Origin: Mesorhizobium sp. 113-3-3
GTDB taxonomy: Bacteria; Pseudomonadota; Alphaproteobacteria; Rhizobiales; Rhizobiaceae
DNA: 64,000 nt
Assembly: GCF_016756495.1 (NCBI RefSeq)
Contig: NZ_AP023243.1
Location: 3,910,501-3,974,500, forward strand
Direction of reading: 5' to 3'
A program made the translations under genes and the position numbers. Below, piece by piece: positions 27,881-38,072 of the stretch. The notes beneath the pieces are model-generated. The model was not told where the DNA came from and did not search any database. It worked only from the letters and a program-made list of their open reading frames with translations. Within the stretch, counting starts at the first letter, position 1. Each line of letters opens with the position of its first letter.

Positions 27881-28951
27881 TCAGTCCTTCTTGTAGAGCA
27901 GCCAGCTCTTGCCGGCGCGGCCGGCCATCGTCGAATGCTTGGTGACGCGGTTGCGGCCACTCACTTTCGAACGGTAGAGCGCTCGGTCGGCCTTGGTGTA
28001 GAGATCCTCAGGGCCTTCGGCCTCGGATGCCATGCAGATGCCCATCGAGACGGTCACGGTGCCGTAATTCATGCCGGTCTGGCTGCTGGTGAACGGCGTC
28101 TGCTCGATCAGGGCGCGAATGCGCTCGGCGACATCGTAGGTGGCGTCTTCGCTGGCGCCTTCGATGATCAGCGCGAATTCCTCGCCGCCGGTGCGGGCGA
28201 CGAACATGTCGCCGCGAATGCTGGTCTGGAAAATCTCGGCGATGATCTGGATGATCTTGTCGCCGACAGGATGGCCGTAGCGATCGTTGATATCCTTGAA
28301 CCGGTCGATGTCGGCAAGGATCAAGGCATTGAACAGGATACCCTTGTTGCTGTTATAGATCCGGGTGATTTCCTTGTCGAAGGCGCGGCGGTTCCAGATC
28401 TGAGTCAACGGATCCGTATCGGCCAGCCGCTTGTATTCCTCGAGCTTCGACTTGACGCTTTCGAGCTCGGCCGTCTTGTCGCTGAGCGTCGAGGCGATCT
28501 GCTTGCCGTGATCGATCGTGGAATTGGTGGCAACGGCCATGGCGTTGGCGATTTTCTGCAGAAGATCCTGGGAGAGCAGGCTGCGGCCGCTCAGGCCGTT
28601 CGATGTCTCGTCGAGAATCCTGCCGTATTTTTCGATGTGGCTGCGTTCGCTCCGCAACAGCGCCGCGACCTCCTCGAGTTCCCTGGCAATGACGTCCCTG
28701 GCATGCTCGACGATGCCCGGGCCGTGGTTCTGCGCAAAGAAGGCGCGCCCGATCTTATCCAGCTCATCCTGCGTCGGCCGGCTGCTAAGCGACACGACGG
28801 CGAGACTGAGCTCGCGATTGGTGCCGCTCAATGCCTCGTAGAAGATCTCGTAGTTGCGCGGCAGGCCGAGGACGCCAAGCTGGCGCATGGTCGTGACAAC
28901 CGTGGCTGCGATGTCGGTGCTTCGTTCGGTTGTGGCTACTGCCGGCTGCAT
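27881..28951 (-). CDS. Diguanylate cyclase (GGDEF domain)
   Basis: A 356-residue cytoplasmic protein. The N-terminal ~180 residues are a helical sensor-like region with no membrane segment (LGLPRNYEIFYEALSG and a coiled coil before DTDPLT). The C-terminal GGDEF domain has ADTDPLTQIWNRRAF, ADIDRFKDINDRYGH and RTGGEEFAL, so the cyclase site looks intact. The RxxD product-inhibition site is not canonical: the arginine is at the expected place but the aspartate is shifted by one (IRGDMFVARTGGEEF). ATG 28951 gives MQPAVATTERS; the frame is open farther upstream to 29068. Confidence 0.9.
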   Translation of the reverse strand: MQPAVATTERSTDIAATVVTTMRQLGVLGLPRNYEIFYEALSGTNRELSLAVVSLSSRPTQDELDKIGRAFFAQNHGPGIVEHARDVIARELEEVAALLRSERSHIEKYGRILDETSNGLSGRSLLSQDLLQKIANAMAVATNSTIDHGKQIASTLSDKTAELESVKSKLEEYKRLADTDPLTQIWNRRAFDKEITRIYNSNKGILFNALILADIDRFKDINDRYGHPVGDKIIQIIAEIFQTSIRGDMFVARTGGEEFALIIEGASEDATYDVAERIRALIEQTPFTSSQTGMNYGTVTVSMGICMASEAEGPEDLYTKADRALYRSKVSGRNRVTKHSTMAGRAGKSWLLYKKD

Positions 28952-34050: not shown

Positions 34051-34461
34051 ATGCCGGACTGCGAGATCAGCTTCGACCTCGCGCGGATCGATTTTCGCGC
34101 GACCTCAGACCTTTTGATGGCGAGCTATTGGGGCGCTGGGCGCAGCGATGCGTTTCATCGCCGGGCCTTTGCCAATTCGTTCTGCGCCGCCGCCTATATG
34201 GATGGCAAACAGGTTGGTTTCGGCAGGGCGATCACCGACCGCGCGGTCTTTGCCTATCTCGCCGACATCATCATCTGGCCTGAGTACCGCGGGCAGGGCA
34301 TTGGCCAGCGGCTGGTGCAGGCACTCATCGATCATCCCGAGCTCGGCACGGTCTCGCATTGGAGCCTGTCGACCGGTGATGCGCATGGGGTCTACGAAAA
34401 GCTGGGCTTCAAGGCATCGACGGACGGCCGATACATGCGCCTGGACCGCACGCCACAGTGA
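34051..34461 (+). CDS. GNAT family N-acetyltransferase
   Basis: A 136-residue acetyltransferase of the GNAT fold. The acetyl-CoA site is in IIIWPEYRGQGIGQRLVQALI (residues about 76-96), followed by the VYEKLGFK segment. The start is taken at ATG 34051 (MPDCEISFD) after a G-rich ribosome site; the frame is open to 34012. The substrate is unknown. It is 50 bases after nadE and probably co-transcribed. Confidence 0.87.
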   Translation: MPDCEISFDLARIDFRATSDLLMASYWGAGRSDAFHRRAFANSFCAAAYMDGKQVGFGRAITDRAVFAYLADIIIWPEYRGQGIGQRLVQALIDHPELGTVSHWSLSTGDAHGVYEKLGFKASTDGRYMRLDRTPQ

Positions 34462-34546
34462 CTGGGACGCGGCGGAAGCCGTCATCGCCGTTGTTGCAAA
34501 ATCATCGCACTGGTTGGACCAGATACGCTTTTGGGCAAGGCTTGTC

Positions 34547-34574
34547 TTGGCGATGCATCGGAGCGTCTCTATAA
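34547..34574 (+). promoter_or_regulatory. Probable promoter of the ABC exporter leader
   Basis: TTGGCG (34547-34552) and CTATAA (34569-34574) with a 16-base spacer. The -10 box matches the alphaproteobacterial CTATAW pattern. Transcription would start close to the first conserved hairpin at 34575. Confidence 0.5.
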
Positions 34575-34744
34575 GGACCGCTCCGCGATTCATTTGCGGG
34601 AGGTCCGAATGGCAGTATTTGAAATGGTAATGCGAGGCCGCGAAGCCTAGGTCTCTACCGGCGCTCCGCGAAGGTTCGTCCTTTGCGCCGGAGCCGGATT
34701 GAGCACAGGCTTATGCCGATGCCGGTCGCCGCCCGACTACGGGC
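34575..34744 (+). ncRNA. Structured leader RNA upstream of the ABC exporter (possible speF-type leader)
   Basis: Three hairpins in 170 bases. Hairpin 1: GGACC (34575-34579) pairs with GGTCC (34602-34606), plus TCC with GGA, and so buries the GGGAGG ribosome site of the small ORF. Hairpin 2: CCGGC/GCCGG (34658-34662 with 34687-34691) plus GCGAAGG/CCTTTGC, loop TTCGT. Hairpin 3: GCCCG/CGGGC (34731-34735 with 34740-34744). From memory the conserved blocks resemble the alphaproteobacterial speF leader family, but I could not check this, and the downstream gene here is an exporter rather than a decarboxylase. Confidence 0.5.
34609..34650 (+). CDS. Candidate 13-residue leader peptide
   Basis: ATG 34609 opens MAVFEMVMRGREA and a TAG stop. 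A strong GGGAGG (34598-34603) lies five bases upstream, which is a better ribosome site than most genes here have, and it is sequestered in hairpin 1 of the leader. The stop is eight bases before hairpin 2. The arrangement (short ORF between two hairpins, 200 bases before a transporter) is that of a translated regulatory leader. There is no proof of expression. Confidence 0.45.
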   Translation: MAVFEMVMRGREA

Positions 34745-34853
34745 GTGACGCCAAAATATGCCATTCCGCTTCTGGGCACTCATTGGCCCCTTGCGCGGCT
34801 TCTTCAATTTTCGACCTTACTGGGATCGGGCTCGTTTGCGCCCGAATGACATC

Positions 34854-36659
34854 ATGGCTCGTTTCAAGATCGTTTTGCGCGCGAGCGCCTTTCGCAGCGT
34901 TCTTGGTTTCACGCTCACCCATTGGCGGCGCCAGCCCTGGCGGCTTTCGCTGATCATGGGTGGTTTCCTGCTGTCGACACTGGCCGACGTTCTGACGCCG
35001 CTCTATTCAGGCCGGCTGGTCGACGCCGTCGCCAGCAGCGCCGGTGCGGACGCCATTGCCTGGAATGCCGCGATGACGGCGTTCTTCATCCTCATGGCGC
35101 TTGCCCTGACCGGCGTGGTGCTGCGCAACCTGGCGTTCATGGGCATTGTCGAACTGACGCTGAAGATGATGGCCGACATCGCCGCCGATGCCTTCCATCG
35201 CGTCCAACGCTTTTCCACCGACTGGCACGCCAATTCGTTTGCCGGCTCTACCGTGCGCAAGGTGACGCGCGGGATGTGGGCGCTCGACCTGCTCAACGAC
35301 ACCATCCTGATCGCGCTGCTGCCTTCGGTCGTGATGCTCGTCGGCTCGACGCTGCTGCTCGGCTGGTTCTGGCCGCTGATGGGCGTGGTCGTCGCCGCGG
35401 GCTCGGTACTGTTCATCATGGTGACGGCGCTGCTGTCGCTTGGCTATGTCGCGCCGGCGGCAAGGCTCGCCAACACCTGGGACACGCGGCTTGGCGGCTC
35501 GCTCGCCGACGCGGTGAGCTGCAACGCCGTGGTCAAGGGCTTCGGCGCCGAGGAGCGTGAAGAGCGCCGCCTCGCCAGGGTGGTCGCCAAATGGCGGGCG
35601 CGCACGCGGCGCACCTGGGTGCGCGGCACCATCAACGGCACCACGCAAGGGGTGCTGCTGCTGGTTATGCGCGCCGCCGTCATCGGCCTGTCGCTGCTCT
35701 TGTGGTCATGGGGGCAGGCGAGCGCCGGCGATGTCGCCTTCGTGCTCACCTCGTTCTTCGTGCTGCAGGGCTATCTCAGGGATATCGGCACGCATATCCG
35801 CAATTTGCAGCGTTCGATCAACGACATGGAGGAGTTGGTCGATTTCCAGTCCGAACCGCTCGGCATCGAGGACCGGCCCGGCGCCAGGCCGATCCGGATC
35901 ACGCAAGGGGCGATCAGCTTCGACAAGGTCACCTTCCACTACGGCAATCACCGGTCGCCGCTCTATCGCGACTTTTCGGTCGATATCGCGCCGGGTGAAC
36001 GCGTCGGGCTCGTCGGTCACTCCGGCTCGGGCAAGACGACCTTCGTCAAGCTCATCCAGCGGCTCTATGACGTCAATGCGGGCAAGATCCTGATCGACGG
36101 CCAGAACATTTCGCAGGTGGCGCAAGCGTCGCTGCGCGGGCAGATCGCGATCGTCCAGCAAGAGCCGATCCTGTTCCATCGCTCGCTGGCCGAAAACATC
36201 GCCTATGCCAGGCCGAACGCGACGCAGGAGGAGATCGAGCATGCCGCCAGGCTGGCGAGTGCGCACGACTTCATCACCAGCCTGCCGAAGGGTTACGGCA
36301 CGCTGGTCGGCGAGCGCGGCGTCAAACTGTCGGGCGGCGAACGCCAGCGTGTGGCGATCGCGCGCGCCTTCCTGGCCGATGCGCGCATCCTGATCCTGGA
36401 CGAGGCGACATCGAGCCTCGATTCGGAATCGGAAGTGCTGATCCAGCAGGCGATGGAGCGGCTGATGGTCGGCCGCACCACACTGGTCATCGCCCACCGG
36501 CTGTCGACGGTGCGGGCGCTCGACAGACTGCTGGTCTTCGACCGCGGCAACATTGTCGAGGAAGGCTCGCATGACGAACTGATCCGGCTGAAGGGCGGTA
36601 TCTACCGCCGCCTGTTCGAGCGTCAGGCACTCGAACTAACCAAGGGACTGGTCATCTGA
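34854..36659 (+). CDS. ABC exporter, fused membrane and ATPase domains (MsbA-like)
   Basis: A 601-residue half-transporter. Six membrane helices span residues about 30-320; the ATPase domain follows with Walker A VGHSGSGKTTFVKL, signature LSGGERQRVAIARA, Walker B ILILDEATSSLD and the switch histidine IAHRLSTVRAL. The group exports lipids, drugs or peptides; the substrate is not visible. The start is uncertain: ATG 34854 (MARFKIVLRAS) fits the family length, while an in-frame ATG at 34758 adds 32 residues; neither has a strong ribosome site, and both are after the structured leader. Confidence 0.9.
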   Translation: MARFKIVLRASAFRSVLGFTLTHWRRQPWRLSLIMGGFLLSTLADVLTPLYSGRLVDAVASSAGADAIAWNAAMTAFFILMALALTGVVLRNLAFMGIVELTLKMMADIAADAFHRVQRFSTDWHANSFAGSTVRKVTRGMWALDLLNDTILIALLPSVVMLVGSTLLLGWFWPLMGVVVAAGSVLFIMVTALLSLGYVAPAARLANTWDTRLGGSLADAVSCNAVVKGFGAEEREERRLARVVAKWRARTRRTWVRGTINGTTQGVLLLVMRAAVIGLSLLLWSWGQASAGDVAFVLTSFFVLQGYLRDIGTHIRNLQRSINDMEELVDFQSEPLGIEDRPGARPIRITQGAISFDKVTFHYGNHRSPLYRDFSVDIAPGERVGLVGHSGSGKTTFVKLIQRLYDVNAGKILIDGQNISQVAQASLRGQIAIVQQEPILFHRSLAENIAYARPNATQEEIEHAARLASAHDFITSLPKGYGTLVGERGVKLSGGERQRVAIARAFLADARILILDEATSSLDSESEVLIQQAMERLMVGRTTLVIAHRLSTVRALDRLLVFDRGNIVEEGSHDELIRLKGGIYRRLFERQALELTKGLVI

Positions 36660-36890: not shown

Positions 36891-38072
36891 ATGCATCTTG
36901 CTTCCGAAGATACCGGTGTGGAAAGGGTGGCTGCGCCGTCGGTGCAGGCGGCGCACCACGGCACGGTTCGGCCACTCGCAGCCGACGATCTCGAGCGCGT
37001 CGCAGCACTCTTCCTGACGAAGTTTCGCCGGCGGCGGCGCCGCCTTCACGATCGCGCCATCGTGGAGGTGGCCGAGTATATGAGGAAGATCTATCTCGAC
37101 CCTGCCGGCCAGCCCGGCGCCAGCAACGCTCTTGTCCAGATCAACCCGCAGGGCGATCTGGGCGGGTTCCTCGGTGTCCTGAAAGCCCGCTACGAGCTCA
37201 ACGGAGCGGTTCTGAATGCGGCGATCATCGGTCCGCTGATGGCCGACACTGGCACCGATCACGGCTCGGCCGGACCGCAATTGCTGCGTGCCGTGCATCA
37301 GGGCGAATTCGATCTGCACCTGACCGATTCGGCCAACCGGGTATCCCTGGCCTTCGCACGCCCGATGAAATACCAGCTCCTGCCGGTGCATTGTCTGGGA
37401 TGGACCCGCATTTTCCGCCCGGCCGCGGTGGCTTCCGCCGCGATGCGCGCCAGATGGCCGGGCCTGCCTCGTTTCGCACTCGATCCTTGCGCCAGGGCAT
37501 TCGACGCCTTTGCGAGAAAAAGGTTCGAGCCGCCCGTCGAGCATTCCTCGTCACACCGGATCCATCGCCAACCGATGGATGCCGCGCAGTTTGCGGAGCG
37601 GCTGCCGACCCTCCTGTCCGATTACGCCCTTCGGCCGCGCTGGCAGGATGGTGAACTGCCACGGCTGCTCGCGCTGGCGGCCGAGAAGCGGGCCGACGGC
37701 CCTCTTCATTTCGGCGGGACTTTCGACGAAGCTGGTAAAATGCTCGGTTGCTACGCTTTCTACGGTCAAGCCGGCGGCATCGCCAACCTGCTGCAGATCC
37801 AGTCTTCCGGACCTCACTGGGGTGCGACGCTGGATGGCTTGATCGCGGACGCGTGGACTATGGGCTGCGCAGGCATCATCGGGCAGACGCAAAGCAGGTT
37901 CATGCCGCAGCTCTTCAGTTACAAGAATGTTTTCTTCCGCTATGCCGGGGGAACGATGGTGCGCTCGCGCATCCCAGAGGTCGCGCAAGCGGTCCGTTCC
38001 GGCGACATCTTCATCGGTGGATTGGTGGGCGACCGCTGGACCCGCCTCAGCTCCGACGATTTCGGCCGCTGA
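36891..38072 (+). CDS. GNAT-like N-acetyltransferase, two-part protein
   Basis: A 393-residue protein of uncertain role. The N-terminal part reads like a GNAT start (TVRPLAADDLERVAALF) with the LLRAVHQGEFDLHLTDSAN block where a GNAT core has its CoA loop. The second half (from about residue 240) repeats the theme with a FDEAGKMLGCYAFYGQAGG strand pair and an IIGQTQSRFMPQLF end. It may be two degenerate GNAT domains in tandem. ATG 36891 (MHLASEDTG) has no strong ribosome site, so the start is tentative. The neighbours do not suggest a pathway. Confidence 0.65.
   Translation: MHLASEDTGVERVAAPSVQAAHHGTVRPLAADDLERVAALFLTKFRRRRRRLHDRAIVEVAEYMRKIYLDPAGQPGASNALVQINPQGDLGGFLGVLKARYELNGAVLNAAIIGPLMADTGTDHGSAGPQLLRAVHQGEFDLHLTDSANRVSLAFARPMKYQLLPVHCLGWTRIFRPAAVASAAMRARWPGLPRFALDPCARAFDAFARKRFEPPVEHSSSHRIHRQPMDAAQFAERLPTLLSDYALRPRWQDGELPRLLALAAEKRADGPLHFGGTFDEAGKMLGCYAFYGQAGGIANLLQIQSSGPHWGATLDGLIADAWTMGCAGIIGQTQSRFMPQLFSYKNVFFRYAGGTMVRSRIPEVAQAVRSGDIFIGGLVGDRWTRLSSDDFGR

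Follow-up and report, generated by a model that had tools for sequence, protein, structure and literature searches.

We analysed a stretch of 64,000 nucleotides of Mesorhizobium sp. 113-3-3 (contig NZ_AP023243.1, positions 3,910,501 to 3,974,500; hereafter the window) and found that positions 34546-34853 are a conserved mRNA leader of the ATP-binding cassette (ABC) exporter gene that follows. Read on the plus strand, the leader carries in order a promoter, hairpin 1 with a GGGAGG Shine-Dalgarno site, a short upstream open reading frame (uORF), hairpins 2 to 4, a pyrimidine-rich tract, the exporter's own Shine-Dalgarno sequence GGGA (SD2), hairpin 5, and the exporter start codon, ATG at 34854 (Table 1). 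We propose that this leader is a ribosome-mediated attenuator that would induce a drug-type exporter when translation of the uORF is disturbed, and we give this reading a probability of a little under one half (roughly 0.46). Sequence comparisons support the conservation of the promoter, translation-type selection on the uORF, hairpin 5, and a tight linkage of the leader to the exporter lineage. In an earlier note on this DNA, the MsbA-like exporter was given a structured, translated leader RNA with the layout of a peptide- or metabolite-sensing element. Conservation and the coding signature support the structure, the translated uORF, and a layout of the peptide-sensing or attenuator kind.

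We examined the uORF in an alignment of 82 leaders (69 from close genus members, 4 from diverged ones, and 9 from other genera of the family), which omits L077, whose uORF start is deleted, the diverged L238 and L239, L020, whose leader is cut from its exporter, and the near copy L193. The length of the uORF is a multiple of three in all 82, including versions of 36, 39, and 45 nucleotides, and the diverged uORFs of L238 and L239 also have 13 codons in frame. Parsimony changes in codons 2 to 13 numbered 35, 31, and 59 at the first, second, and third codon positions, and the Glu and Ala codons before the stop showed 9 and 12 third-position changes versus 0 and 1 at the first two positions. Per alignment column we counted 3.0 changes in the uORF, against 4.5 for the 20 preceding bases and 10.0 for the 60 following ones. 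Because changes concentrate at the third codon position and the frame is always kept, these results indicate that the uORF peptide is under protein-level selection. The synonymous-only change that the earlier note had named as a check was found as a third-position excess in a constant frame, with the first and second positions also varying. A translated leader ORF, as in the bmrB-type attenuators of bmrCD (whose host belongs to a different phylum and has a different exporter arrangement), is present here on evolutionary evidence. The commonest peptide forms in the alignment are MPGFDIVMRGREA and MAGFDIVMRGREA. We liken MRGR, as a lead only, to the R-x-R macrolide arrest motif of ErmDL.

The leader DNA was matched in 88 of 99 genus-mates, so the conservation across Mesorhizobium on which the earlier note had made its reading depend is borne out. 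Among the 11 misses, five retain the exporter, preceded by a uORF that has diverged but keeps the layout (G005/L241, G042/L238, G054/L194, G076/L239, and G086/L240). At 1e-150 the exporter is unmatched in the other six (G006, G013, G021, G024, G051, and G097) and also in one genome that has the leader, G084. A degenerate pattern for the uORF end matched 89 stretches in named species genomes, 7 of which end too soon to judge, and the exporter lies 187 to 208 nucleotides after the uORF stop in 79 of the 82 pattern-bearing contigs with enough downstream DNA. The three exceptions are two chance matches (L115, on a Vibrio contig, and L182, unrelated by its genes) and L131, which has other DNA after the pyrimidine tract. 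The long flanking ORFs differ among seven loci compared, and for this reason leader and exporter seem to travel as one unit. In L131 and L020 (M. erdmanii USDA 3471, G050), the leader's pyrimidine tract is followed by about 4 kb of other DNA before the exporter is reached, which separates the gene from its leader.

We surveyed orthologues by an exporter-based search of the order, family, and class and read the upstream DNA of the fetched hits, a subset of all hits. Most orthologues have a short ORF with a strong Shine-Dalgarno sequence at roughly -150 to -255. A strict uORF detector, applied to groups set by taxonomy alone, scored in 75 of 76 loci within the genus. Its yield was 38 of 43 among loci from the rest of the family, 34 of 42 from the rest of the order, and 1 of 7 from the rest of the class; none of 14 second matches in the same genomes scored, and shuffles yielded means of 0.03 to 0.67 per group. 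When run on 46 genes of the window, it scored at one, the exporter itself. The uORF peptides are clade specific. Within the family they often begin with M-x-x-F, and a distant family member encodes MTPAFIGTLPSGMTRH; those of other families are quite different, for example MTAIIAFVSSGRSRRR or MASMHMTVVPDFPPELSGR. Peptides from outside the family are provisional, as the detector may pick a neighbouring start at some loci (e.g., L196, L198, and L199). The peptide sequence turns over by clade, and the layout, meaning position, length, and start site, stays.

A second exporter copy, 72% identical and without the leader, lies in the same genome on the minus strand (G000:C1:6834199-6835986), and similar second copies occur in other Mesorhizobium; none of the 14 second copies examined has the uORF. 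A tree of 48 exporters requires five changes of uORF label, four of them forced by well-supported branches (root unknown); the labels were our own, with L202, L203, L213, and L262 marked as uORF bearing though failing the strict rule and four rows unlabelled. Since the Mesorhizobium copies that lack the uORF are nested inside uORF-bearing clades, as is the second f35 copy, the simplest reading is that the uORF was lost after exporter duplication.

The earlier note had pointed to a promoter-like pair of boxes, which we read directly in the sequence and found with the same boxes and spacing in relatives. The motif CTTGGC-N17-CTATAA stands immediately 5' of the strong Shine-Dalgarno site in 79 distinct leaders, and the transcription start is predicted near 34581. 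A consensus scanner returned no promoter in 34400-34900, this promoter falling under its threshold. The 191-nucleotide stretch at 34580-34770 has a more stable predicted fold than all of 200 dinucleotide shuffles (z of -3.0). An operator-like palindrome in the promoter spacer was tried as a candidate and rejected (arm lengths of 3.78 versus 3.73 shuffled and 4.04 versus 3.73 shuffled). In five Mesorhizobium leaders (L054, L057, L063, L064, and L071), a palindromic sequence resembling a repeat (AGAGCGTACTTTGTGCGTCC ... GGACGCAC) lies in the stretch from the -10 box to the uORF Shine-Dalgarno site, and in G061 and G064 the promoter half was matched about 100 bases farther upstream than expected.

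SD2 stands 28 nucleotides from the exporter ATG, and hairpin 5 shortens this gap to 8 nucleotides. A fixed rule for a hairpin bridging the two detected one in 56 of 59 distinct leaders of the genus, 32 of 42 in the family, 20 of 38 in the order, and 1 of 7 in the class; it also picked out 2 of 10 sequences from second copies. Shuffles of these groups averaged between 0.06 and 1.24 detections, and among 46 genes of the window the rule detected one, at 27883-28951. L236 and L237 count among the misses, their 60-base upstream stretch having been cut at the wrong ATG. Folding energies of the SD2 region were in agreement: across three groups of leaders the mean z was -1.15, -2.04, and -1.71 (the last group being mixed, with genus and family members inside), versus -0.37 in duplicates (a group that includes four uORF-less f89 homologues) and -0.16 in 43 window genes, though only 11 of 59 genus leaders were individually significant. 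In covariation alignment A1, made of 53 of 65 thinned segments, hairpin 5 scored 0.255 versus 0.181 in shuffles (none of 500 reached it) and at most 0.175 for a slid helix, and 26 cells had changed on both sides versus 10.1. Two other counts were unremarkable: 154 of 500 shuffles had at least as many double-change pairs (4), and 45 of 500 at least as many pair types. The outermost pair is unpaired in 18 of 53 cells, and RNAalifold run on the same SD2-region alignment predicted other pairs, not hairpin 5.

In structure, hairpin 5 makes SD2 a hairpin-bridged Shine-Dalgarno sequence of the phage T4 gene 38 type. A review reports for T4 that a hairpin between Shine-Dalgarno and AUG makes genes 38 and 25 better translatable, shortening spacings of 22 to 5 and 27 to 11 nucleotides as against 28 to 8 in the exporter leader (PMC3014915). 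The T4 hairpins were tested by mutation, whereas the evidence for hairpin 5 is conservation and covariation over several families of a bacterial order. An arrangement described in that review for two phage genes is here a conserved feature of a bacterial gene (PMC3014915).

Table 1. Features of the exporter leader and its gene (window positions)
Feature	Position	Strand	Basis
Promoter (CTTGGC 34546-34551, 17-base spacer, CTATAA 34569-34574)	34546..34574	+	recurs in aligned relatives with the same spacing
Hairpin 1, partly over the uORF Shine-Dalgarno site	34582..34600	+	34582-34588 pairs with 34594-34600; above chance mainly in the genus
uORF Shine-Dalgarno site GGGAGG	34598..34603	+	read directly; present in aligned relatives
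uORF, 13 codons, MAVFEMVMRGREA, stop TAG 34648-34650	34609..34650	+	frame and substitution pattern, 82 aligned sequences
Hairpin 2	34658..34697	+	starts 8 bases after the uORF stop; folding
Conserved block around GCCGATGCCGGTCGCCGCC	34708..34733	+	few substitutions in alignment
Hairpin 3, CGCCCG-ACTA-CGGGCG	34730..34745	+	folding; 26 of 72 genus leaders individually significant
Hairpin 4 and pyrimidine-rich tract	34766..34812	+	CCGC 34766-34769 with GCGG 34795-34798; folding, alignment
Exporter Shine-Dalgarno sequence GGGA (SD2)	34822..34825	+	sequence and relatives' alignment
Hairpin 5 (TCGGGC with GCCCGA), between SD2 and start	34826..34845	+	34826-34831 pairs with 34840-34845; rule count, covariation
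ABCB-type half-size exporter (MsbA/Sav1866/P-gp-like), 601 amino acids	34854..36659	+	profile and structure-database matches, conserved start

The exporter start at 34854 is conserved, and the resulting length is that of 107 of 120 listed homologues; the mechanically called ORF start at 34758 is not the real start. The protein matches PF00664 and PF00005, and none of the 25 NCBIfam models shown reaches its own cut-off. Its best structure-database matches are full-length transporters of the ABCB type, including multidrug pumps, most of them matched over two stretches, followed by Sav1866, ABCB6, Atm1-type exporters, and MsbA, and homologues are named multidrug in some records. By sequence, the exporter is akin to multidrug pumps. 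At an E threshold of 0.001, Pfam gave no match for the ORF downstream of the exporter (36891-38072).

Ribosome-mediated attenuation, as shown for bmrCD (PMC4191407) and msrD (PMC10314930), has the anatomy seen here: ahead of an exporter gene of this kind stands a very short ORF that is under selection and strongly initiated, its peptide varies by clade, and a strong hairpin begins within reach of a ribosome at its stop codon. In the mechanism we favour, a ribosome would translate the 13-codon uORF from its own strong site, and during normal translation the downstream leader would hold exporter expression low. If translation were slowed or stalled within the uORF or at its end (most plausibly by an antibiotic that targets the ribosome, with help from the nascent peptide), the ribosome's footprint at the stop codon would reach the base of hairpin 2; the distance between stop codon and hairpin given in the earlier note was read directly in the window sequence. 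The leader would then refold, or be shielded from the termination machinery, and RNA polymerase would continue into the exporter gene, to be translated from SD2 brought near the start codon by hairpin 5. Regulation, its signal, and the step of refolding or termination are inferred. The likeliest signal is inhibition of the antibiotic type; a metabolite is possible. Control would more probably act at transcription, by intrinsic termination in part of the genus and perhaps by Rho-dependent termination elsewhere, because predicted SD2 exposure ignores ribosome position and intrinsic terminators are patchy.

We scored the folding of individual hairpins in groups of 72 (genus), 37, and 45 leaders, the last group being mixed in that it holds L238 to L241 from the genus and L205, L212, and L215 from the family. 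Hairpin 2 was individually significant in 56 of 72 leaders of the genus (mean z of -2.6), 13 of 37, and 13 of 45. The corresponding counts for hairpin 1 were 28, 4, and 1, and because it is above chance mainly in the genus, hairpin 1 is by these folding predictions not the common core of the leader system. The earlier note had the GGGAGG site locked in hairpin 1. The first bases of the site are indeed paired, but the site is only partly covered and the hairpin is above chance mainly in the genus. A hairpin around the stop codon, seen by eye in a few families, was dropped as a common element (significant in 1 of 72, 8 of 37, and 13 of 45). The closing stem of hairpin 4, CCGC/GCGG, is nearly invariant in the alignment, and the tract after it is U rich (e.g., TTTTTTC) in much of the genus and often CTTCTTC in the window's clade. 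For the 47 leaders from the genus that lie outside the window's clade, hairpin 4 and the U-tract scored together as a terminator at 50.1 (31.7 when shuffled), and 13 of the 47 beat all 12 shuffles. Support for an intrinsic terminator as the general mechanism is only partial: the structure looks like one in much of the genus but lacks that character in the clade of the window.

Several results weigh against the attenuator reading, which is weakened because the window's own clade is without a terminator signal. The score there was 29.1 versus 27.4 shuffled (29 leaders, L010 to L038, the nearest relatives of the window; 2 beating all shuffles), with at least 6 of 12 shuffles scoring as high in 18 of the 29. 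Outside the genus it was 31.4 versus 23.4 in 37 family members (4 beating all) and 22.6 versus 20.5 in 37 others (2), and the consensus scanner returned no terminator in 34400-34900. Against a tree-based null, none of the 90 best pairs over the whole leader reached E 0.5, and the covarying pairs that the earlier note looked for in relatives were not significant over the whole leader. A parsimony recount of column-pair covariation was equally uninformative; sequence aligners break the variable hairpins. In folding predictions SD2 exposure barely moved with ribosome position (mean change of 0.019 in 72 leaders and 0.000 in 18), and translational attenuation by sequestration of SD2 was unsupported with the ribosome placed at the uORF start, at its stop, or over the whole uORF. 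As a terminator or sequestering hairpin that would exclude an alternative fold, hairpin 4 with its U-tract is plausible in part of the genus and not in the window's clade, and the analysis found no SD2 effect and no covarying alternative. The strict uORF is also missing in one genus member (L077, a fragmentary metagenome-assembled genome without its first half), 5 family members, 8 order members (including the f28 loci L206, L207, L210, and L217), and 6 of 7 loci from other orders.

The individual elements are of known kinds. For the leader of bmrCD in Bacillus subtilis, it is demonstrated that antibiotics that target the ribosome act as inducers and that bmrB contains an intrinsic terminator (PMC4191407). 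The likeness is a short translated ORF with stem-loops directly ahead of an ABC multidrug exporter; the difference is that terminator and drug induction are demonstrated there (PMC4191407) and putative for the exporter leader. The msrDL and erm leader peptides are likewise very short peptides ahead of resistance genes, and msrDL acts at the stop codon; drug-dependent arrest is demonstrated for these, in other hosts and ahead of other genes, and putative for the uORF (PMC10314930). Within the same bacterial order, a study of a uORF ahead of a DUF1127 gene of Sinorhizobium meliloti reports premature termination at several positions that tetracycline relieves, induction by chloramphenicol as well, and a discontinuous Rho site proposed by its authors (PMC12218461). 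That attenuator is uORF dependent like the one proposed here, but its downstream gene differs and the RNA, not the peptide, matters, whereas in the exporter leader the peptide is under selection. Attenuation through a leader ORF is, according to the same study, a common way for Gram-positive bacteria to control resistance genes (PMC12218461).

The combination of these elements, their order-wide spread, and the turnover of the peptide appear to be undescribed in the literature searched. We found the leader neither in the Rfam library nor in that literature, in which no paper was found to combine Mesorhizobium, a leader peptide, an ABC transporter, and attenuation, most subscription papers and all supplements having been outside the search. 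In many genera of rhizobia and related bacteria, the comparisons tie a uORF leader to a single exporter of the multidrug type. We raise tentatively, as a joint claim that is rather doubtful as a whole, that this is an order-wide alphaproteobacterial attenuator of an ABCB drug exporter with an exchangeable sensor peptide, shed on exporter duplication. The scaffold would be constant (promoter, strong uORF site, hairpin 2, pyrimidine-rich tract, and hairpin-bridged Shine-Dalgarno sequence), and each clade would have evolved a short arrest peptide of its own. If this is true, Gram-negative soil bacteria would have a family of antibiotic-sensing leaders that has gone unrecognised. The dozens of natural peptide variants on one scaffold would allow asking which drugs or metabolites select which arrest sequences.

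The alternative that survives best, though we consider it unlikely, is a constitutive arrangement, in which no signal is sensed and the effect of the uORF and bridging hairpin is confined to tuning or stabilising the mRNA, as a ribosome landing pad or translational enhancer. The failure to find an alternative structure, the insensitivity of SD2 exposure to ribosome position, and the lack of a terminator signal in the window's clade all suit it. However, amino-acid-level selection on the uORF peptide is unlike a mere landing pad, and the leader is absent from second copies nested among leader-bearing exporters.

Lower still, we rate as improbable a metabolite-sensing nascent peptide in the style of SpeFL or TnaC, in which a small molecule other than an antibiotic and the uORF peptide together would block termination at the stop codon. 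Conservation of the genus peptide peaks at its C terminus (RGxEA-stop) with UAG as the stop in 73 of 75, and 17 of 34 peptides outside the family end in Arg, as such a sensor might. However, the C-terminal residue and the stop codon shift between clades (TGA in 20 of 38 uORFs from other genera of the family), the genes flanking the leader and exporter differ between the loci compared, and no polyamine link was found. A C-terminal Arg was rejected as a universal feature of the uORF, ending 4 of 38 peptides from other family genera and none of 75 from the genus.

It is very unlikely that the uORF peptide acts in trans, either being cargo or, as a small regulator, controlling the exporter or an RNA; the peTrpL leader peptide of S. 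meliloti serves as the comparison case (PMC10117765). A selected peptide encoded directly ahead of an exporter is what this idea would predict, yet near-total sequence difference between families, with position, length, and start site kept, suits a cis element better.

The likeness to the speF leader suggested in the earlier note can be dismissed at the level of both sequence and covariance model, as can membership of another known Rfam leader family: RF00518 had no match in 34400-35000 even at E up to 10, and neither the leader nor 14 related leader loci had an Rfam match above gathering score, the speF control locus alone matching. In the window as a whole no Rfam family came up to its gathering score, and relaxing E to 10 gave three subthreshold matches near the gap, none of them speF. 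The gathering score of RF00518 (37 bits) is not reached at the leader, and the neighbour is an ABC exporter instead of a COG0019 decarboxylase. Corbino et al. place speF ahead of COG0019 genes and in their measurements saw no binding of ornithine, lysine, diaminopimelate, putrescine, cadaverine, or spermidine (PMC1273637). The two share being structured alphaproteobacterial leaders and differ in sequence and downstream gene (PMC1273637). The earlier note had also suggested that the exporter moves or responds to polyamines, and our analysis found nothing connecting the two. The real speF element of this genome lies at G000:C1:2120316-2120464 (92.3 bits), ahead of a lysA-type decarboxylase (TIGR01048, 180 bits; model cut-off 298), and blastn of its leader against the exporter leader gave chance-level pieces only. 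This real speF leader (L089 1345-1649) is directly preceded by a strong match to the ar45 small RNA (160.7 bits) on the same strand, 9 bases apart.

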